From Haliscomenobacter hydrossis DSM 1100 (GTDB lineage: Bacteria; Bacteroidota; Bacteroidia; Chitinophagales; Saprospiraceae), in assembly GCF_000212735.1 (NCBI RefSeq), contig NC_015510.1, forward strand, positions 4,093,001-4,157,000: a DNA stretch of 64,000 nucleotides, read 5' to 3'. Made by a program: the position numbers and the translations under genes. How positions within the stretch are numbered: the first letter of the stretch is position 1; each line of letters begins with the position of its first letter. Of this stretch, positions 5,471-54,073 are shown piece after piece. The notes beneath the pieces are model-generated. The model saw only the letters and a program-made list of their open reading frames with translations. It did no database searches and was not told where the DNA came from.

Positions 5471-7102
5471 TTACTTGGTGGCAAAAATGCTCTCGGGCTT
5501 CCAGCTCGGGCGCTCCGCAGCACGGGAAACCAAATAACTGATCAAAAAATTCAGGCGTACGTAAGTGCGTCCAGCTTCAAAATTGAACGAATCGTTGAGC
5601 TCGTCGGAGGGTTTGTGGTAGTTGTTTTTGGTAAAATCCTTGATCAATCCATCCAGGTCAAAATTGGGGTCACTGGTCTTCAGGCCGTACTTGATGTGTA
5701 AGGCCGGGATGCCCTGCAACACAAAACTGTACTGATCACTGCGCACAAAACGCACCTCCGTTGGCATATGGTCTTGCATAACTTCGAGTCCGAGGTAGCC
5801 CGCCGCTTGCTGCACGGTTGCCATCAAGGTAGAATGTTCTGCGCCCAGGGGCACGATGCCCAAAAGTGGTGCCAGAATGGTGGGCATGTCCGTGTTGATA
5901 TCCGCTACAATTTTGTCTTTGGGTACTGTGGGGTTGTTGGCAAAATACGTGGAACCCAAGAGTCCCATTTCCTCTCCGGTCACCATCACAATCAATACAG
6001 AGCGTTTAGGGCGATCTTTTTTAAAGCCCTGGTAAAGCTTGGCAATTTCTAATAAGCTGGCTACTCCCGAGGCATTGTCGTGTGCGCCGTTGTAAATGGA
6101 ATCGCCGTTGACGGGTCGACCGATGCCCACATGATCCAGGTGCGCGGTATGCACCACGTATTCTTCTTTGAGTACAGGGTCTGAACCCGGAATTTTGCCG
6201 ATTACGTTGAAGGTTTCCAGGTGCTCGTACACCGTACCGGTTTGTACTCTTGCTGTGCCTGGAATGACCACGGGCGCAGTTGGGTTGTACAACAAGGCCG
6301 CCAACTCCCGGCTGCTCAATTCGGGTTTGCCCATAATTTTGCCCAAACCAGCCCAGGTCAAGGTGCCCACTACTTTGATGGAAGGGTAAGGATTGACCCC
6401 GCGGCCTTCGGCTTTTCCGTTGGGCAACACCACTCCTCTTACCGATCCTGGCCCACCTTGCGGCCCTCCAACGGTAGGCGGCGGCATGACGAATACACCC
6501 ACTGCACCATGTTGATAGGCCATGTCTACTTTGGCACGGGTGGTAGCCAGGTGGGCAGTTTCGGTGCTGCCGAATTTGTTTTCGGGTACCCGACTGAGCA
6601 CAATCACCATTTTACCTTTAACGTCCAGCCCTTTGTAATCATCGTGATTGAGCTTGGGCGCAGAGATGCCGTACCCGGCAAATACCAGGGGCGCTTCGAT
6701 CTGGTTGCTCGCCACGTTGAAATCGGCTTGTACCGTAAAATCTTTGCCGTACTCAAGATCGAGGTGTTGTTGGGGCGAATGGTAATGGATGCCATTTTGC
6801 TCCACGACCGTTTTTGCGGTGCGTACAACGACCTTTTGGCGGTAGCTACCATTTTCACCGGCGGGTTCGAGGCCCAGTTTTTTAAATTCTGCTTCGACGT
6901 ATTGCCCCGCCAATTCAAATTCTGGCGTGCCCGGCAAGCGACCCTTCATGCGGTTGTCGGCCAAATAGGCGATGTGCCCTTTGATGGCTTCTGCGGAGAC
7001 CTTGGCGAATGGTTTTTTCAGATGTTTGGGTAGTCCATTTTGTCCCCAGCAGGTGGAAACAAGGGAGCTAATCAGGACAATGGTTAGGCTACGATAAATC
7101 AT
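5471..7102 (-). CDS. Secreted M28 family metallopeptidase with PA insert
   Basis: A 543-residue exported zinc aminopeptidase. A signal peptide (MIYRSLTIVLISSLVSTCWG) is followed by an N-terminal region, a protease-associated (PA) domain at about residues 125-260 (APLVFAGYGISAPKLNHDDYKGLDVKGKMVIVL) and the M28 catalytic domain at about 300-530. Metal ligands and catalytic residues are seen in VHTAHLDHVG (His, Asp), GAHDNASGVASLLEIA (Asp), TGEEMGLLGS (catalytic Glu and metal Glu), ADINTDMP (Asp) and, near the end, NYHKPSDE (His). It likely trims N-terminal residues from peptides in the periplasm or outside the cell. It is upstream of and co-directional with the serine hydrolase. The ATG at 7102 gives a proper signal peptide. 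Confidence 0.93.
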   Translation of the reverse strand: MIYRSLTIVLISSLVSTCWGQNGLPKHLKKPFAKVSAEAIKGHIAYLADNRMKGRLPGTPEFELAGQYVEAEFKKLGLEPAGENGSYRQKVVVRTAKTVVEQNGIHYHSPQQHLDLEYGKDFTVQADFNVASNQIEAPLVFAGYGISAPKLNHDDYKGLDVKGKMVIVLSRVPENKFGSTETAHLATTRAKVDMAYQHGAVGVFVMPPPTVGGPQGGPGSVRGVVLPNGKAEGRGVNPYPSIKVVGTLTWAGLGKIMGKPELSSRELAALLYNPTAPVVIPGTARVQTGTVYEHLETFNVIGKIPGSDPVLKEEYVVHTAHLDHVGIGRPVNGDSIYNGAHDNASGVASLLEIAKLYQGFKKDRPKRSVLIVMVTGEEMGLLGSTYFANNPTVPKDKIVADINTDMPTILAPLLGIVPLGAEHSTLMATVQQAAGYLGLEVMQDHMPTEVRFVRSDQYSFVLQGIPALHIKYGLKTSDPNFDLDGLIKDFTKNNYHKPSDELNDSFNFEAGRTYVRLNFLISYLVSRAAERPSWKPESIFATK

Positions 7103-22454: not shown

Positions 22455-22616
22455 AGACTTGTTACGACGGGAGCGCTTGAGATCAAAAATAAGGGATTTT
22501 TTTCCTGATTGAGGCTTATTTTTGAGTGCGTAGCAGCGCTACGGACGAGAAAATAAACGAAAAGCAGGGAAAAAAGGCCATTTTTGAGCCAAGCAGTCTC
22601 CCGTTGCAATAAGTCT
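22455..22616. repeat. ~160-base inverted-repeat element, member of the TAGCAGCGCTA set
   Basis: Terminal inverted repeats begin AGACTTGTTACGACGGGAG on the left and AGACTTATTGCAACGGGAG on the complementary right end, continuing inward with CAAAAAT and TTTTTTCC blocks. The centre holds GTAGCAGCGCTAC. The element fills the gap between the coiled-coil gene start and the stop codon of the TPR/propeller gene, ending about two bases before that stop. The central TAGCAGCGCTA resembles the centres of the 46021 and 50891 elements, but most of the rest of the sequence differs. Confidence 0.78.
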
Positions 22617-44242: not shown

Positions 44243-46015
44243 TTGGCAACAGAACAACCCAAAAGTAAGTTCAATTTCTACCTGCTTCGCCGGGTTATGG
44301 CTCAGGCCAAACCCTACCAGGGCGTGTTAATTGCTTCAGCCATCATGGCGATAGTGCTGGCGCCGCTGGGTACCTTGCGCCCCTGGCTGGTGCAGGTCAT
44401 GGTGGATGAACACATTTTTAAGCTCGATATTAAAGGGCTGGGAACGATGGCGTTGATTTTTTTGGTATCCTTGCTTTTTCACGCCTTCTTGCAATACGTG
44501 TTTCAATATGCCACCAGTTGGTTGGGGCAGTGTGTAGTGCGCGACCTCCGGGTAGGCATTTTTCAGCACATCACCAGTTTGCGCTTGCGCTACTTTGATC
44601 GCACTCCCGTGGGTAACTCGATCACCCGTACCATCAGCGATATGGAAACCATCAATACGGTGTTTTCACAAGGAGTGATCACCATGATTGCCGATATCCT
44701 GACCCTGGTATTCGTTTTGGGGATCATGTTTTACACGAGTTGGAAATTGACCCTGGCTTGTTTGCTCACCTTGCCTTTTTTGATGGCTACGAGTTATTTT
44801 TTCCAAAAAAATGTAAAACGTTCTTTTCAGGATGTACGCACCCAGGTGGCGCGGATGAATTCTTTTTTACAAGAACGCATTACGGGCATGCGCATCGTGC
44901 AAATTTTCAATGCTGAACAACAGGAAGGGGCTAAATTCCGCGAGGTCAACCGCGATTATACCAAGGCCAACCTCGATTCGGTATTTTATTACGCCGTGTT
45001 TTATGCCGTGGTGGAAATTATTGCTGCTGCTACCCTTGGCCTGATGATTTGGTGGGGCGCACGTGGCGTCATTGCCGACGAAGTCACGATGGGTTCCCTG
45101 GTGGCTTTCCCCATTTACCTCAATATGCTTTTCAACCCGATCCGCACCCTGGCCGATCGTTTCAATACCCTGCAAATGGGTTTGGTTGCCGCCGACCGGG
45201 TTTTTGCGCTACTGGATGATCCAGAAAATTTGGAACAAAACGGCAGTTTTAAACCCGATAAACTTCAAGGCGAGGTCGACTTTGACCGGGTATGGTTTGC
45301 CTACAACGAAGAGGATTTCGTGTTGAAAGATGTCAGTTTTCACATCAATCCGGGCGAGACGCTGGCTATTGTGGGGGCTACAGGCTCCGGTAAATCGACC
45401 ATCATCAATATCCTCAATCGCTTTTACGACATTCAAAAAGGGGCTATAAAAGTAGACGGGGTCGACATTCGCGAGTACGATTTGTTCGCCCTGCGCCGCA
45501 GGGTAGCGCTGGTTTTGCAGGATGTATTCCTCTTTGCAGGAACCGTGCTCGAAAACATCACCCTGCGCGACGATACCATCACCCGCGAACAGGTCATCAA
45601 CGCGGCCAAAATGATCGGTGCCCACGCATTCATCGAAAGGCTACCGGGAGGTTACGATTATCAGGTGATGGAACGGGGGGCAACGTTGTCGATGGGGCAA
45701 CGGCAGTTGATTTCCTTTGTACGCGCCCTGGTTTTTGAACCAGATATTTTGATCCTGGATGAAGCAACGTCTTCCATTGACCCCGAATCGGAATCGGTGA
45801 TTCAATTTGCCATTGAAACCATGATCGCCAAACGCACCTCGATCATCATTGCCCACCGCCTCTCAACCATTCGGCACGCTGACAATATCCTGGTGCTGCA
45901 CAAAGGCGAAGTCCAGGAGTACGGCCCACACGAGGAGTTGCTGCGCAATGAAAACGGGCATTACAAACAGTTGTACGAGATGCAGTTTTTGCAGGTTGGA
46001 GTGCTGGAGGAATAA
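44243..46015 (+). CDS. ABC exporter, fused membrane and ATP-binding domains (MsbA/BmrA-like)
   Basis: A 590-residue half-transporter that works as a homo- or heterodimer. Six membrane helices occupy residues about 20-320, then the ATP-binding domain has the P-loop IVGATGSGKSTIINIL, Q-loop VLQDVFLFAG, signature TLSMGQRQLISFVRAL and Walker B ILILDEATSSIDPESE, with the switch His in IIAHRLSTI. The signature is LSMGQ instead of LSGGQ. Substrates of this class range from lipids to drugs. Start is TTG (44243), the only fitting start codon, since the frame upstream shows no ATG and the first Met in frame falls inside the first helix region. A 160-base repeat follows the stop. Confidence 0.93.
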   Translation: MATEQPKSKFNFYLLRRVMAQAKPYQGVLIASAIMAIVLAPLGTLRPWLVQVMVDEHIFKLDIKGLGTMALIFLVSLLFHAFLQYVFQYATSWLGQCVVRDLRVGIFQHITSLRLRYFDRTPVGNSITRTISDMETINTVFSQGVITMIADILTLVFVLGIMFYTSWKLTLACLLTLPFLMATSYFFQKNVKRSFQDVRTQVARMNSFLQERITGMRIVQIFNAEQQEGAKFREVNRDYTKANLDSVFYYAVFYAVVEIIAAATLGLMIWWGARGVIADEVTMGSLVAFPIYLNMLFNPIRTLADRFNTLQMGLVAADRVFALLDDPENLEQNGSFKPDKLQGEVDFDRVWFAYNEEDFVLKDVSFHINPGETLAIVGATGSGKSTIINILNRFYDIQKGAIKVDGVDIREYDLFALRRRVALVLQDVFLFAGTVLENITLRDDTITREQVINAAKMIGAHAFIERLPGGYDYQVMERGATLSMGQRQLISFVRALVFEPDILILDEATSSIDPESESVIQFAIETMIAKRTSIIIAHRLSTIRHADNILVLHKGEVQEYGPHEELLRNENGHYKQLYEMQFLQVGVLEE

Positions 46016-46020
46016 ACCTA

Positions 46021-46180
46021 GAGCATGTTTACATATTTTTGTTTTAAGCGAAAATGAGGCCGATTTGAGTTAAATGAGGCACGAAAAGCGGAGTTTAGCA
46101 GCGCTAAATGAGCATTTTCGGAACGAAACTCAACTCAAATCGGGCCATTTGCAGCAAAACAAAAAAAATTAAACATGCTC
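46021..46180. repeat. ~160-base inverted-repeat element (TAGCAGCGCTA set)
   Basis: Terminal repeats GAGCATGTTTA (left) and TAAACATGCTC (right), continuing inward with TTTTGTTTT and CCGATTTGAGTT blocks that also pair. The centre holds CGAAAAGCGGAGTTTAGCAG and CGCTAAATGAGCATTTTCGG. It lies between the ABC exporter stop and the orphan helical protein; the right terminal repeat supplies that protein's last codons (GAG CAT GTT TAA). About 47 bases of the centre also occur, in reverse complement, at about 50967-51015. Confidence 0.85.
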
Positions 46181-47617
46181 TTTGAACCTAAAACTTAAAA
46201 CTTCCTCCAACCACTGCTTATTTCCCAACGGCTGCAACACCTGCACATCCCGATCCAATTGTCCCTTGAATCCGGCCACATCCCGGATATCCGCACTGGC
46301 GTACCGCAACAGGCACAAGCGCTGGAGGATGTGCAAAAAATTGAGGCTCGACTTTTTTTGATAGTCCGACAATTGCCGGTTGCGTTGCACAAAGCGACGG
46401 GTCGCATTCATCAGTGACAATAAAGCCTCCGTTTCCGCCAACAGGAAATAACTCTTCAACTGGATCAACTTTGCCGAAAGGTGGTAAAAAGCATCGGTAA
46501 ACTCCACATTGTGCAACATGCGCAAAGCTGAGGGATAGTCTTTTTTTTCAAAATACAAGTTGGCCAGGTTGTAGGTATACACGTTCTGGTGTAAGTCCGG
46601 CGCCAGATAATGTTGGTAATCCTGAATGAACTGCTCTGTCCAGACATAATCCCCCGTGCGGATGCCTGCCGTAATGATGTTGGTAAAGGTCCATTGGGTC
46701 AGGGTACCATTTTTGAAGATAATGGACTCATCCAGCAGCAATTTGTACAGGTAAAGAATTTCCTGGTAATAATGCGTTTCGCCAGAGTTGATGCGCAATA
46801 CGGCAAAATTGAGCACGTAAGTGTACAATAGGCGCAGCTCGTGTTGGGGAATGACCTTTAAATGTTGTTGCAACAACTGCTTCAGCTCCAGGTATGCGGC
46901 TTGGCCAGTTTGCTGGGTAAACATATCATAAGCGGCCAGATAAACTTGCAGTGCTGGAAATCTCGCCAACTCCTCTACGTTTAGGCGATACCACGCAATG
47001 ATGTCCTCAATAAACGCACAGTGGTAATCGGCATTAACGGCGGTATTCCGGCTGGCCATGTCGCAGGCAATTTTCATTTTTTCCAGCTGGTAAAAACGAT
47101 CGAGGGCATCACTGCGCGATTGAAGGTGCGGCGTGTATGCCCGTTTTTCCTGGCTCATCAGGTGTTGATCTTGTAACTCTTGCAATTGGTATTCTGCAAA
47201 CCAATAATTGCCATCACGCCAGGCTTGGGCTGCTTGAACCTGGGTGTAACGTTCCAATTGCAGGACGCAGGGTTCTAGCCATTCGTGGTCTAACAAACTG
47301 CGGATGAGCAATTGTTTTTGCAGTCTAGTTTCCCGGGCGTAGCGGGCTTGCGCCAAAAAATCATACAGCAAATACAGCAGATCAGAAATTAGGTTATTGA
47401 ATTTTAACTCGTTGTACACCTCAGGTGCAAAACCAAGGCTGTAAATTTCCTTTTTATCAATGGGTTTTCGGGCTTTGAGTTGTTGCTCAATGGCGTCTAT
47501 CAGCAACCTCAGGTTTTTGTTTTGGTTAAAAAAAGAAGAATGGACATACAAAACAAATTGCTTTCGTTCTTTTGCATTGAAATTTTGGTACAATTCCAGG
47601 AAGCGGTTCTTTTTCAA
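46169..47617 (-). CDS. Helical-repeat protein of unknown function
   Basis: A 482-residue protein with no recognised domain and no signal peptide. It is almost entirely helical, with Leu/Gln-rich segments resembling TPR-like repeats (FAVLRINSGETHYYQEILYLYK, VYTYNLANLYFEKKDYPSAL). It begins MKKNRFLELYQNFNAKERKQ from a TTG codon (47617); the upstream frame has a stop, so this is the only start. Its last three codons and stop lie in the terminal repeat of the 46021-46180 element. A -7-like box (TACTTTTG complement at 47652-47659) precedes it. Confidence 0.75.
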   Translation of the reverse strand: MKKNRFLELYQNFNAKERKQFVLYVHSSFFNQNKNLRLLIDAIEQQLKARKPIDKKEIYSLGFAPEVYNELKFNNLISDLLYLLYDFLAQARYARETRLQKQLLIRSLLDHEWLEPCVLQLERYTQVQAAQAWRDGNYWFAEYQLQELQDQHLMSQEKRAYTPHLQSRSDALDRFYQLEKMKIACDMASRNTAVNADYHCAFIEDIIAWYRLNVEELARFPALQVYLAAYDMFTQQTGQAAYLELKQLLQQHLKVIPQHELRLLYTYVLNFAVLRINSGETHYYQEILYLYKLLLDESIIFKNGTLTQWTFTNIITAGIRTGDYVWTEQFIQDYQHYLAPDLHQNVYTYNLANLYFEKKDYPSALRMLHNVEFTDAFYHLSAKLIQLKSYFLLAETEALLSLMNATRRFVQRNRQLSDYQKKSSLNFLHILQRLCLLRYASADIRDVAGFKGQLDRDVQVLQPLGNKQWLEEVLSFRFKEHV

Positions 47618-47651
47618 AATTCTATAATTTTATTGATAAAAAACTGATTAA

Positions 47652-47659
47652 CAAAAGTA
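47652..47659 (-). promoter_or_regulatory. -7 box upstream of the helical-repeat gene
   Basis: Minus strand TACTTTTG, 35 bases before the start codon; no TTG at the right -33 distance. It faces the opposite-strand box at 47732-47739 in the 144-base divergent gap. Confidence 0.5.
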
Positions 47660-47731
47660 TAATTTTATTTCACTGTATTTTAATTTCTATAAATTCATTT
47701 TTTTGTCCTTTACTAACCCTTCCCAGACCCC

Positions 47732-47739
47732 TACTTTTG
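47732..47739 (+). promoter_or_regulatory. -7 box upstream of the cohesin/dockerin gene
   Basis: TACTTTTG, matching TAnnTTTG, 22 bases before the ATG at 47762. A TTTG occurs at 47702-47705, but the 26-base spacer is longer than usual. Confidence 0.55.
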
Positions 47740-47761
47740 TAAGAACAAAAAGAAAAATCTC

Positions 47762-50236
47762 ATGCAACGTTTTTATGCATTCTTCACTTTCCTGGCTTTG
47801 TGGTCAGTGCAATTGAGCGCACAAAGCGCCAATTGCCTCAACATCTACCTGGCTCAAGCCGATGCCAGTGGTTCTGATACGCTGGTGCTCGACGTACGGG
47901 TACGCGATTTTAACGGAGTTGTAGGATTACAGTACACCAGCAAGTGGGATACTGCCGTGCTGGACTTCATTGGGGTGTCAAATTTTGGCCTGCCTGAATT
48001 GCGCAGCAGTAACTTTAGCTTGGGGTCTCCCAACCTGAACAAGGGCTTGCTCAGCCTTTCTTGGTTCAAACTCGACAGCACCTACCGGCAGGACGGTGCA
48101 AGACTGTATAGCCTGAAATTTTTCATCAAAAATAAAGTGGCAACGGCTACCAGTATTCAATTTGCCGATGAACCTGTGCCAAGTGAGGTGACATACAATG
48201 GCACTCGGGCCTTATCCATACCGGGTTTGATCGGCCTGAAGGTGAATTTAAAAAGCACCAACTCTTCTGATCCACTACACATTACCCGCATCTGCTCCGC
48301 GATGAGCACTTGTCTGGATTCTTTGGCCAGTGCTTTTGTGGAAGCCAGTGGAGGAACAGCACCTTATCGGTACTTATGGCTGGGGAAGACCCAAAACTTT
48401 CAGGAAAGAGCGATTACGGGAGCAAAACCAGGGCCCTATTTGCTTTGGGTTATCGATGCCAAGCAGGATACAGCATTGGCCTTGGTAGGCGTGTCTAAAG
48501 CCAGTCAACCGGGTTTTGGCATTTACGTCAATATATCGATCGCTTGCGACGATACCAGCAAACAAAAAGCCACGATCACTGCGGCCAATCTAGCCTTGCC
48601 GGGCACGTTTAGTTTTGCCTGGAGCAATGGCCAGCGTGATGAAAATGTGGCAGTAAGTTCGATCAGGGTGTCAAAAGATAGCATCTATAGTTTGACCGTA
48701 ACGGATGCCAGCGGATGTAAAGTCACCTTGCCCAATTTATCGGCAGCGATATGCTACAACGATACCAATCCTGTTGATACCATTCCTCAGGATACCATTA
48801 TGTACCCAGGTGCCAATTTGAGCGTGGAAAATACCATTGCCAAATCAGGTGAAGTTTTTTGTGCCGACGTAGTGGCGAGCAATATTCCGTCCTTGAGTGG
48901 ATTGCAGTTTGCCCTGCGTTGGGATACCAGCATGTTGACTTTCCACAGTGTAAAATACCCCAAACCGGAAGTAATTGACCCCAACACCCTGGGTTTGAAC
49001 AAGGCAGCCAAGGGAGAACTGCGCTTTGTCAAGGTGTATTCTCCCTTTGCCGCAGCCTTTGCCTACGAAAAACTCTTTGAGGTCTGCTTTTCCAGTAAAT
49101 CCAGTGGAGACTCTACCCAAATTGTTTTTGCCCCCGACATCTTGCCAACGCTGGCCATAGATGCGCAACAAAACATCATTCCCCTGAATACCTATGCCGG
49201 ATCGGCGCTTGTATTCCCGGCTATTTGGCCCGGCGATGCCGACCGAAATGGCACCGTAGATCAGTTTGATTTATTGCCCATTGGGTTGGCCTATGGCACC
49301 AGTGGAACCACGCGCAGCAATCCACAAATTACCTGGGAAGCCCAAAGTACCCAGAAATGGGGCAAAACCCTGGTCAATAGTAACATTGATCTGGCCTTTG
49401 TTGACGCAGATGGAAATGGGCTCATTGATGCGGCGGATACTTCGGCCATGGCCCGCAACTGGCAACGCAAACACAATGACGGTTTGCCAAAGCTCAATCA
49501 ACCCGAAATTCGTACGGGCGGCGCATCCTTGTTCATTAATGCCGATACGGTGCTGAGTGGGCCCGGACAGTGGTTTCCACTGGAATTGGGTACTCCTGAT
49601 CAAGCGGCGGAGAATGTATACGGTTTGGCCTTTAGCGTTGTGTACAACCCCAACGAAGTAAAAGAAAATGAGCTGAAGTTTAGTCCGGAAACTTCCTGGT
49701 TGGGCACCTTGGGGCAAGACTTGCTTGCTTTCCAACGCCACAACCCGACGGCAGGCCGCATTGATGTAGCTCTAGTCCGCAGCGACGGCCGCAATGTTAG
49801 TGGTTCGGGCCGCATTGGGAAAGTGAAAATCACGATTGAAGACGTTATTTTGAACCTGCGTGATGGCGAAAATCCCAAAATTCAACTAGGCATTGAAAAC
49901 GTGCGCCTGATCAACAACGCCGATCACCTCGTTCCTATAACGCCCCTGTCGAGTACGCCCAGTGCCAAAAAACAAGTCAGCACTTCGGCATACAATCCTT
50001 ATCTGGATGCACGGATTCGGGTGTACCCTCAGCCAGCCACCGATTTGCTGTACCTCGACTATGGCGATTTACAACTGCGCAGTGTTCAATTGCTGCAATT
50101 GGACGGCAAGGCGCTGAGTGGAATACTGGCCCCACAACGTAGCCTGAGTTTGGCGGGAGTCCCTGCGGGGGTATACCTGCTCAAGGTGGTGGCCGAAAGT
50201 GGTGTAGCCATGAAAAAAGTGCTGGTTACCCGCTGA
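47762..50236 (+). CDS. Secreted cohesin/dockerin-like protein with T9SS sorting domain
   Basis: An 824-residue exported surface protein. A signal peptide (RFYAFFTFLALWSVQLSAQ) opens it. Three cohesin-like modules are visible by their Asp-x-x-G-x-x-G-x-Q patterns (LVLDVRVRDFNGVVGLQYTS; FCADVVASNIPSLSGLQFAL; ENVYGLAFSVVYNP). A pair of dockerin-type calcium loops, GDADRNGTVDQFD and VDADGNGLIDAAD, lies at about residues 495-570. The C-terminal ~80 residues (ARIRVYPQPATDLLYLDY ... GVPAGVYLLKVVAESGVAMKKVLVTR) are a type A T9SS sorting domain, so the protein should cross the outer membrane by the type IX system and be anchored or released. Role: probably extracellular scaffolding or polysaccharide work; not proven. 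Confidence 0.88.
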   Translation: MQRFYAFFTFLALWSVQLSAQSANCLNIYLAQADASGSDTLVLDVRVRDFNGVVGLQYTSKWDTAVLDFIGVSNFGLPELRSSNFSLGSPNLNKGLLSLSWFKLDSTYRQDGARLYSLKFFIKNKVATATSIQFADEPVPSEVTYNGTRALSIPGLIGLKVNLKSTNSSDPLHITRICSAMSTCLDSLASAFVEASGGTAPYRYLWLGKTQNFQERAITGAKPGPYLLWVIDAKQDTALALVGVSKASQPGFGIYVNISIACDDTSKQKATITAANLALPGTFSFAWSNGQRDENVAVSSIRVSKDSIYSLTVTDASGCKVTLPNLSAAICYNDTNPVDTIPQDTIMYPGANLSVENTIAKSGEVFCADVVASNIPSLSGLQFALRWDTSMLTFHSVKYPKPEVIDPNTLGLNKAAKGELRFVKVYSPFAAAFAYEKLFEVCFSSKSSGDSTQIVFAPDILPTLAIDAQQNIIPLNTYAGSALVFPAIWPGDADRNGTVDQFDLLPIGLAYGTSGTTRSNPQITWEAQSTQKWGKTLVNSNIDLAFVDADGNGLIDAADTSAMARNWQRKHNDGLPKLNQPEIRTGGASLFINADTVLSGPGQWFPLELGTPDQAAENVYGLAFSVVYNPNEVKENELKFSPETSWLGTLGQDLLAFQRHNPTAGRIDVALVRSDGRNVSGSGRIGKVKITIEDVILNLRDGENPKIQLGIENVRLINNADHLVPITPLSSTPSAKKQVSTSAYNPYLDARIRVYPQPATDLLYLDYGDLQLRSVQLLQLDGKALSGILAPQRSLSLAGVPAGVYLLKVVAESGVAMKKVLVTR

Positions 50237-50283
50237 TCTGGTGTCCTCGGTATTATTGTCCTAACAATTTAGCTTAACGTGTT

Positions 50284-50862
50284 ATGAAAACATCCATCAT
50301 CTTCATATTTTCTTTATTGCTGTGCGGCGTAGTGTTCGGACAGTTGGATTCTAGCAAAGTCATTTCGGGCAGACTACAGTGTCTAAACGGATGGCCTTTA
50401 GCTGGACAAATCGTAGTATTAACGGATACCCTGAGCGGGCAAAAAATCGAACAAAACCTCGACTCATCCGGAGTGTTTTTGTTCCAAAACGTCCCAATTG
50501 GCCGTACTTACCAATTGAGTCTGAAAAACGAATTTCCAGAAATTGATACATTACGCGCCATCTCGGTGCTCGATCTGGTAAAAATTAGCCATCATATACT
50601 TGGTATACGCAGTTTGGATATTGCCGCTCAAATTGCAGCCGATCTCAATGAATCTTTTGGCGTGACTACATTTGATTTGGTAGTGCTGACGCAGTTTTTG
50701 CAAGGCAAGCGCAGTGCTATTGGCATCAAAAAATCTTTGATACTGCTCAACGGAACCACTGCATATTCCCATAACATCATTCCAAACTTCAGCAGTAGCC
50801 TCTGGGGGCTACATTTCGTTTATGTCATCAAAGGTGATGTAGATGGATCAGGTTGTCCCTGA
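50284..50862 (+). CDS. Short secreted dockerin-like protein (possibly truncated)
   Basis: A 192-residue exported protein with signal peptide MKTSIIFIFSLLLCGVVFG. Residues about 28-90 look like a carboxypeptidase-regulatory-type beta domain (GWPLAGQIVVLTDTLSG). The part after it has two dockerin-like helix pairs (ISVLDLVKISHHILGI; VTTFDLVVLTQFLQG). Proteins of this type usually continue past the GDVDGSG segment and end in a T9SS sorting domain, but here the frame stops after VIKGDVDGSGCP. This looks like a 3' truncation; a 195-base repeat element lies 28 bases downstream. The gene is just after the larger cohesin/dockerin gene and may be its partner. Confidence 0.75.
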   Translation: MKTSIIFIFSLLLCGVVFGQLDSSKVISGRLQCLNGWPLAGQIVVLTDTLSGQKIEQNLDSSGVFLFQNVPIGRTYQLSLKNEFPEIDTLRAISVLDLVKISHHILGIRSLDIAAQIAADLNESFGVTTFDLVVLTQFLQGKRSAIGIKKSLILLNGTTAYSHNIIPNFSSSLWGLHFVYVIKGDVDGSGCP

Positions 50863-50890
50863 TTGATTAAGCCTAATTGAGCGTATGTTT

Positions 50891-51087
50891 TGAGCCTGTT
50901 TCTCGTGGAGTGTATTTGGGATTCTACTTCGCGCTGCAAATGACAAGAATTTACTCCAACTTCGTTCCGAAAATGCTCATTTAGCGCTGCTAAACTCCGC
51001 TTTTCGTACCTCTTTGGAGCAAATTCTTGCTCATTTTCGCTGCAAACCAGAATCTCAAATACACTCCTAGTTGGAGCAGGCTCATTT
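50891..51087. repeat. ~195-base inverted-repeat element (TAGCAGCGCTA set)
   Basis: The ends TGAGCCTGTTTCTCGTGGAG and, complementary, TGAGCCTGCTCCAACTAGGA begin arms that continue through GTGTATTTGGGATTCT. An inner pair (GCAAATGACAAGAATTTACTCC and its complement) forms a second stem. The centre holds CCGAAAATGCTCATTTAGCG then CTGCTAAACTCCGCTTTTCG, which is the reverse complement of the core of the 46021 element. The right end lies about five bases before the stop of the CAP-domain gene. Confidence 0.85.
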
Positions 51088-51092
51088 TTTAT

Positions 51093-51662
51093 TTACTGGC
51101 ATTTTTTCGCCTCGCCCGCCGGGTCTTTTTCTCTGCCGAACCAAACCACGGCATAGTTCCCATACAAGCCTACGCCGCAAGCGTTCCAGGTCAGTTTTTT
51201 CCACATGCTGCGATTGATCATCATGTTGTTGTGGCCAGCGCTCCTTTTCCATCCGGCAATGGCCTCATTGGCATTGGCGCCATTGCTTTGCCAATAAGAA
51301 ATTTCGAATCCTTCGCCAGGATAAGAACTCAGTTCTTTGGGTTTTTTCCACATACACTCAGCCTGGGCGTGATCGTCAGTATAGCAGCAGGGCGTCCAGG
51401 TACCCTGGTCTGACCAACTGTGCAAATTGCAGTTGCCCTTCACGGGCTGGTTGATTTCCAAGTCTTTGGCATGAGCCTGAGCTACCACGGTCATCGAAGC
51501 CGACAAAGGGATGCGGGGCAGTTTATACTGCTTGCGGTAAGCATTCAGCTGTTCGTATATTTTGTATTCTTCTGCCGAAAGACATACGGCGGCGGGGCTT
51601 GTTTTTTTTGCGCCAAAAGCCACGGATAAGGCTACGGCAACGTAGAGCAGCAGGGTTTGCAT
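51093..51662 (-). CDS. Secreted CAP-domain (SCP/PR1) protein
   Basis: A 189-residue exported CAP-superfamily protein. Signal peptide MQTLLLYVAVALSVAFGA. The domain has LNAYRKQYKLPRIPLSASMTVVAQAHAKDLEIN, the buried-His block CNLHSWSDQGTW, and the end NACGVGLYGNYAVVWFGREKD, which contains the conserved VVWFG strand. Six cysteines suggest disulphides. CAP proteins have many roles and the sequence does not tell which. The repeat 50891-51087 lies just beyond its stop. Confidence 0.9.
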   Translation of the reverse strand: MQTLLLYVAVALSVAFGAKKTSPAAVCLSAEEYKIYEQLNAYRKQYKLPRIPLSASMTVVAQAHAKDLEINQPVKGNCNLHSWSDQGTWTPCCYTDDHAQAECMWKKPKELSSYPGEGFEISYWQSNGANANEAIAGWKRSAGHNNMMINRSMWKKLTWNACGVGLYGNYAVVWFGREKDPAGEAKKCQ

Positions 51663-54046: not shown

Positions 54047-54055
54047 TGTGTCCTT

Positions 54056-54073
54056 TTAAACATGCTCTAGGGG
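54056..54073. repeat. Isolated copy of the TAAACATGCTC terminal word
   Basis: TAAACATGCTCTAGG here is the reverse complement of the left edge of the 46021 element including its flanking CCTA. No second end is found nearby, so it may be a remnant or chance. It lies between the sialidase and the regulator, ten bases upstream of the regulator ATG. Confidence 0.4.

Follow-up and report, generated by a model that had tools for sequence, protein, structure and literature searches.

A MITE-like hairpin family of Haliscomenobacter hydrossis with a structured core that may outlive its terminal repeats

What keeps a common centre intact in two inverted-repeat elements whose arms appear to have nothing in common? 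The question is raised by a stretch of 64,000 nucleotides (nt) from Haliscomenobacter hydrossis DSM 1100, a member of the Saprospirales (the window; C1:4093001-4157000 of the 8,771,651-base genome). A preliminary description of the window, made from its letters alone, had noticed two copies of a core of about 47 bases in opposite orientation, each inside a large inverted repeat. The shared core and its two orientations were borne out, and each element indeed has self-complementary arms and folds as a single long hairpin (elements 1 and 2; Table 1). The outer arms, which had been called wholly different, are actually 79% complementary over 121 nt between the two elements; these are two sub-types of one 162-nt element, whose ends obey a common rule (GAGYNTGTTY-like). 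The interval formerly given for element 2 (50891-51087) does hold a real element, and it also takes in a host terminator-like hairpin in whose loop the element was inserted. A third, much diverged copy (element 3) had been overlooked. We consider it rather probable that all these copies belong to one superfamily of non-autonomous, mobile hairpins resembling miniature inverted-repeat transposable elements (MITEs), in which the core strand, likely as RNA, is selected in its folded form and the ends have been swapped between transposases.

A search of the genome with the first 20 bases of the core, a check that the preliminary description had proposed, gave 50 matches at up to three mismatches (46 of them at up to two) and none with the reversed pattern as a control, which rules out that the genome holds only two copies. 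Forty-nine close full-length copies were extracted and aligned; alignment A1 consists of the 46 without tip inserts, including elements 1 and 2, and model R1 was built from these 46. Searching the own genome with R1 recovered all 49 close copies and additional weaker places. A second model, R2, built from 54 matches (alignment A4; 50 of them from other genomes), gave 119 own-genome matches at E <= 0.001 among 150 candidates scored; two of these are second-strand hits, leaving about 117 places. The 90 copies that we examined comprise all 49 close copies and 41 of the remaining 68 places in the own genome. Lengths are 156-164 nt in 87 of them and 180-181 nt in the other three, which carry tip inserts; 88 of the 90 lie outside open reading frames (ORFs) by a simple rule, gene calls being ORF heuristics. 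Several rows were left out before these counts: the degenerate L041 from the set of 49; the copies with tip inserts (L035, L056, and L057) from A1; L055, L058, and L059, which are half-matches by chance; and, from alignment A5, L099, L199, three second matches, and five rows from Halomonadaceae. Alignment A3, in which row L010 is on the wrong strand, entered into none of the counts. We found no autonomous element in which a gene separates the two parts of the core, since all 46 core matches at up to two mismatches fall within the 49 full-length copies; nor did four long end-motif pairs (L012, L014, L046, and L024) enclose an ORF that resembles a transposase by eye.

There is strong support for one strand of the element being maintained as a long folded hairpin whose purine-rich internal loops are conserved and occupy fixed positions. 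From base to tip (in A1), this single imperfect hairpin of each copy comprises an outer stem of about 25 bp, an outer box (in close copies, GCGAAAA / ATTTGCAGC), about 22 bp of further stem, the middle box (GAGGCA / GAACGAA), another 8 bp, and a tip of the form GGAG-stem-loop-stem-TGA, in which the pair 76-88 (A1 columns) switches between T-A and G-C. Comparison between genera shows the tip and the middle box (as AGGC / AACG) mostly kept, and the outer box often lost. If the folded strand is RNA, the boxes could hold sheared G-A pairs.

The arms vary widely yet remain paired, within this genome and across Bacteroidota, and their covariation, which the preliminary description had also suggested examining, is strong. 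In A1, 41 of the 61 pairs show a two-sided change with pairing kept in at least one of the 46 copies; changes from a standard pair between nearest neighbours are made up of 120 double compensations, 48 G·U, 14 A·C, and 35 others, and 10 reciprocal nearest pairs give 8 double changes, 21 G·U, 2 A·C, and 9 others. Among the 54 diverse matches of A4, 91.8% of the cells are paired (61.0% when shuffled), two-sided cells number 933 against a shuffle mean of 267.5, and the score is 0.725, with slid controls reaching at most 0.144. An alignment of the 41 further own-genome copies (A7) behaves similarly, with 86.2% of the cells paired versus 60.6% shuffled, and 656 two-sided cells versus 218.4. The earlier proposal that the core is functional and that the arms are retained for pairing fits well with this covariation and with the copy number.

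The pairs also distinguish between the two strands: a G·U on the core strand is an A·C on the opposite strand, so an excess of G·U points to one of them. With the mostly-G·U pairs excluded, G·U cells number 62 and A·C cells 17 in A1 (26 against 7 columns, p=0.0013), and 169 and 53, respectively, in A4 (36 against 11 columns). It therefore seems that selection acts on a single strand in its folded form, clearly so in A1 and A4 and weakly in A7; neither double-strand cruciforms nor neutral correction between the arms would yield such an excess. The A1 excess is present in every gene context, including where the neighbours read oppositely (13 versus 4), and the copies are randomly oriented towards their neighbouring genes (tandem, 24 versus 23); the strand bias is thus not accounted for by simple read-through transcription.

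There is equally strong support for insertion of the copies as precise units, the common sub-types having IS5-like ends and TNA duplications. One congener (G001, L156), in which both flanks of element 2 could be aligned, has an empty site with an intact terminator-like hairpin; a second (G002, L158) has the hairpin without the element, with the left flank aligned and the contig ending soon after. For element 1, the left flank is found on other contigs in the congeners, and no empty site was readable. Another copy (L025:2439-2600; C1:3278475-3278636) interrupts a transfer RNA (tRNA) gene, tRNA-Ile(gat), which ARAGORN detects solely with the flanks joined. Identical flanking 3-mers occur at 23 of the 49 copies, 22 of them being TNA, whereas 2000 shuffles gave 7.9 on average and never more than 17. 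The same genome contains four identical copies of an 871-bp element that encodes an IS5-family transposase (NF033580), has the ends GAGTATGTTC, and is flanked by TAA/TAA once and by TTA/TTA three times; TNA targets are the rule of an IS5 subgroup. The last 27 bases of this insertion sequence (IS) resemble sub-type A by eye, and the ends of types A-C are similar, not identical, to its ends. The preliminary description had contrasted the elements with MITEs, whose ends are conserved; this contrast does not hold, as the ends are conserved within each sub-type, IS5-like in the main type, and often accompanied by short duplications. With its short non-coding unit, many dispersed copies, terminal inverted repeats, target-site duplication, and empty site, the family is a MITE, one whose internal structure is conserved as well.

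The same core lies inside several unrelated terminal repeats, which is again strongly supported. The 41 diverged own-genome copies end in TAGACTTG (19 copies), TATACCCC (13), GTACCAG (2), a GGGACGG-like terminus beside TTA (3), GGCAAGGG near CTAG (2), TGCATTAAC beside CTAG (1), or AGAAGCTG, which is close to the main type (1). We labelled these diverged copies families D to J; total length, middle box, and tip are retained in them.

Some individual copies keep their fold in place across species divergence, also with strong support. We collected 40 element loci from four congeners (8 from G004, 12 from G002, and 10 each from G001 and G003); two share both flanks with own-genome copies, and one more has just one flank in common, at another spacing. 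In the first pair (L019/L121), 2 of 162 sites differ, together turning an A-T pair into T-A, and the flanks differ at 53/400 and 55/400 sites; in the second (L024/L134), the 16 differences among 161 sites include compensated stem changes from T-A to G-C and from T-A to C-G. Farther away, five Halomonas or Billgrantia records (L175, L177, L200, L203, and L240) have an element between efp and epmA, both of which lie on the other strand, and EF-P and EpmA were confirmed on either side in all five. The Halomonas copies are 119-120 nt long (model match); the five orthologues have 11 varying pairs, of which 6 are compensated, 3 are G·U, and 2 are broken. A sixth Halomonadaceae record has its copy at another place.

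R1 matches were found in 21 of 60 genomes drawn as relatives, and R2 matches in 13 of 395 evenly drawn members of the phylum (7 candidates scored per genome), both figures including the own genome. In a named collection, the tip pattern occurs in at least 117 stretches; the 80 listed loci come from Saprospiraceae, Lewinella, Snuella, Emticicia, Spirosoma, Microscilla, Halomonas, Billgrantia, and others, and 78 of these 80 match R1 too (E <= 0.01). R2 counts range from 2 to 146 in 11 of those genomes; for the five named Halomonadaceae genomes the range is 2 to 8. Such a patchy, multi-copy spread fits a mobile element.

We therefore read the family as a superfamily of putatively structured-RNA MITEs, with a core that may outlive changes of its terminal repeats. 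In the mechanism we propose, resident IS transposases would move the double-stranded DNA by recognising its last 10-25 bp, as the evidence on types A-C supports and as may be extended to the other families. Between jumps, selection would act on the folded single strand, for which the choice of strand is supported and which would most likely be RNA; the looped core would probably be recognised by a protein or an RNase. Because the terminal repeats would form the base of the hairpin, with a change in one arm then matched by the partner arm, the core could move under new transposases with its fold intact.

Several points weigh against this reading. An IS partner was found solely for the TNA/GAG type, and a search of 503 kb of own sequence found no IS with ends of types D to H (I and J ends unsearched), so the change of transposase is one that we infer. 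Twenty-six of the 49 copies, including elements 1 and 2, have no identical 3-mer flanks. A4 and A7 were fitted to the model, so they are biased towards it; no structure guided the alignment of A1, but the structure used for it is a prediction from that same alignment; and the nearest-neighbour counts are not independent of one another. The strand signal of A7 is weak (67 G·U against 51 A·C cells; 24 against 10 columns), and the count obtained with two mostly-U·G pairs included, 107:53, is inflated by those two. The strand bias is not explained by simple read-through, and single-stranded DNA is compatible with the data. Finally, with 2 of the 40 congener loci orthologous, the in-place evidence comes from few cases, and one of them (L024/L134, 16/161) is no more conserved than one of its flanks (39/400; the other, 87/321).

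The alternative that survives best concerns ancestry: the family would belong to one old superfamily with the enterobacterial ERIC repeats, a possibility we hold only tentatively. ERIC is the nearest known element in architecture, being an intergenic palindromic repeat that folds as one long hairpin, with the same GGAG-stem-loop-stem-TGA tip and with GAG/CGAA boxes at like spacing (E. coli copies). A degenerate tip search over 848,790 strand-bases gave 44 hits, made up of 41 strict elements, 1 element variant, ERIC, and 1 other. The 5′-TA-3′ termini of ERIC are found in most copies of families D and E and are absent in A-C, which have TNA and GAG-like ends; those of family E are TATACCC..GGGTATA-like, and the fetched ERIC copies end CATACTC / GAGTATA. 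On the other hand, ERIC is about 127-130 nt long versus 156-164 nt here (87 of 90 copies; the Halomonas copies are 119-120 nt), the main type has GAG-like ends with TNA duplications, and the resemblance was noticed first and tested afterwards. The homology tests all failed: R2 gave E 0.07-0.1 in 1.3 kb, the core model R3 had no ERIC match in 49 kb of E. coli, plain alignment was non-significant (25 of 500 shuffles as high, at best), and so were profiles of families D, E, and H; the element family is therefore not assigned to ERIC. The description of ERIC and other palindromic repeats of bacteria dates from 1990-91, according to a review (PMC2229807); that review reports orientation-dependent effects of ERIC on messenger RNA stability, and treats transposase-driven movement of such repeats as being without experimental support. 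We regard as unlikely the broader scenario in which one structured RNA core, predating the split between Bacteroidota and Gammaproteobacteria or spread between them, survived by swapping terminal repeats and transposases, with ERIC as its enterobacterial branch; if it were true, the element would be a parasitic or symbiotic RNA for which DNA transposons serve as interchangeable vehicles.

A less credible alternative, which we judge improbable, is that the folded strand is a single-stranded DNA hairpin recognised by an enzyme, with RNA uninvolved. Such hairpins exist in REP elements with TnpAREP and in integron attC sites; REP/REPIN elements are palindromic intergenic repeats too, REP being much shorter, whereas the elements described here are much longer and have inverted ends and target duplications. 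The independence of the strand bias from neighbouring transcription would suit single-stranded DNA, as would the lack of a promoter that is conserved by eye and the empty result of a sigma-70 scan around one Halomonas copy. However, TNA duplications and inverted ends like those of IS with DDE-type transposases point to double-stranded transposition, and the conservation of old copies in place would be unexpected for a pure mobility signal.

Somewhat less probable again is that these are ordinary IS5-type MITEs, in which the hairpin is a by-product of an inverted-repeat origin and complementarity comes from template-switch correction, with no selection on a folded strand. The IS5-like ends and TNA duplications, which resemble and equal, respectively, those of the own-genome IS5-family element, speak for it, together with the weak G·U excess in A7 (67 to 51). 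So do mini hairpins that are 20-59 nt long and share the GAGC..GCTC ends (L069, L073, L074, L075, and L080), among which L075 resembles an internal deletion of sub-type B. Yet arm correction would erase asymmetric internal loops, and these rank among the most conserved parts; it predicts equal numbers of G·U and A·C, in conflict with the 62:17 of A1 and the 169:53 of A4; and total length is nearly fixed among families with unrelated ends. The conserved structured interior, its strand-biased pairing, and its presence in other ends set the family apart from IS5-family MITEs.

Two regulatory roles can be dismissed: a bidirectional terminator between convergent genes, suggested by the two window copies, because only 7 of the 49 close copies and 10 of 88 in the larger set have convergent ORFs around them, and a cis-regulatory element of 5′ untranslated regions, because the random orientation to genes argues against any simple untranslated-region role. 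A conserved promoter of the element's own was rejected as well: the motif TAnnTTTG, which we take to be a Bacteroidota-like promoter motif, is present in the ends of sub-type A and absent from B and C (by eye).

Among catalogued families, Rfam release 15 gave no gathering-score match over the element in window positions 45900-51200 and seven other loci; the best overlap was that of MIR2863 with the L183 element, which scored 33.4 bits where 94 are required. Like the present family, Bcr1 (in the tables of PMC2267715) and further families of stem-loop repeats are short intergenic repeats with a predicted common secondary structure; compensated arms across genera and alternative ends, both seen here, are not mentioned in that description. 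A literature search, without preprints and most subscription journals, found no description of the element family.

If the core of these hairpins does outlive changes of its terminal repeats, MITEs would not always be dying fragments of one transposon. The many copies, compensated orthologues, strand signal, and occurrence of one core in several ends make selection on a folded strand directly testable.

Table 1. Element copies and associated features in the window (positions are those of the window)
Feature	Position	Strand	Remarks
Element 1	46020..46181	+	162 nt, full length; sub-type A ends AGAGCATG...CATGCTCT; model R1 171.6 bits, E 1.9e-40; in alignment A1
Element 1, left terminal arm	46020..46045	+	Inverted repeat, 88% complementary
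Element 1, right terminal arm	46156..46181	+	Partner arm of the same inverted repeat
Element 1, middle box, 5′ side GAGGCA	46076..46081	+	A1 columns 57-62, mostly invariant or >=90%; AGGC conserved in A4
Element 1, middle box, 3′ side GAACGAA	46121..46127	+	A1 columns 102-108, >=90%; AACG conserved in A4
Element 1, tip: GGAG - stem TTTAGC / loop AGC / stem GCTAAA - TGA	46090..46111	+	A1 columns 71-92
Element 2	50907..51067	-	161 nt, full length; sub-type C ends GGAGTGTA...TACACTCC; R1 157 bits, E 8.2e-37
Terminator-like host hairpin, split by element 2	50892..51083	.	Arms 50892-50898 and 51077-51083; same hairpin without the element in relatives G001 and G002
Element 3, diverged copy	22455..22616	+	Family D ends AGACTTGTTACGACGGG...; R1 E 2.8e-10; R2 E 6.7e-13 (C1:4115455-4115616); fold -73.3 kcal/mol

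Some smaller features accompany the family. A lone end motif, GAGCATGTTTAAAA, lies at window positions 54054-54067 (reverse strand), partnerless and adjoining the start of a GntR-like ORF; similar lone motifs precede some genes elsewhere. The tip inserts of L035, L056, and L057, found in these three copies only, consist of an additional short hairpin, TCCCGACAAGCCGGGACAGAAC. Repeat-like arrays with a 7-base period are common to this genome and a congener (L045:814-936, L051:3693-3817, L036:1771-1888, and L123:1-93). In the congener G004 (L157; C247, about 6150-6300), the terminator-like hairpin that houses element 2 in the window contains an unrelated palindromic insert of about 120 nt, and this hairpin is possibly an insertion hot spot.

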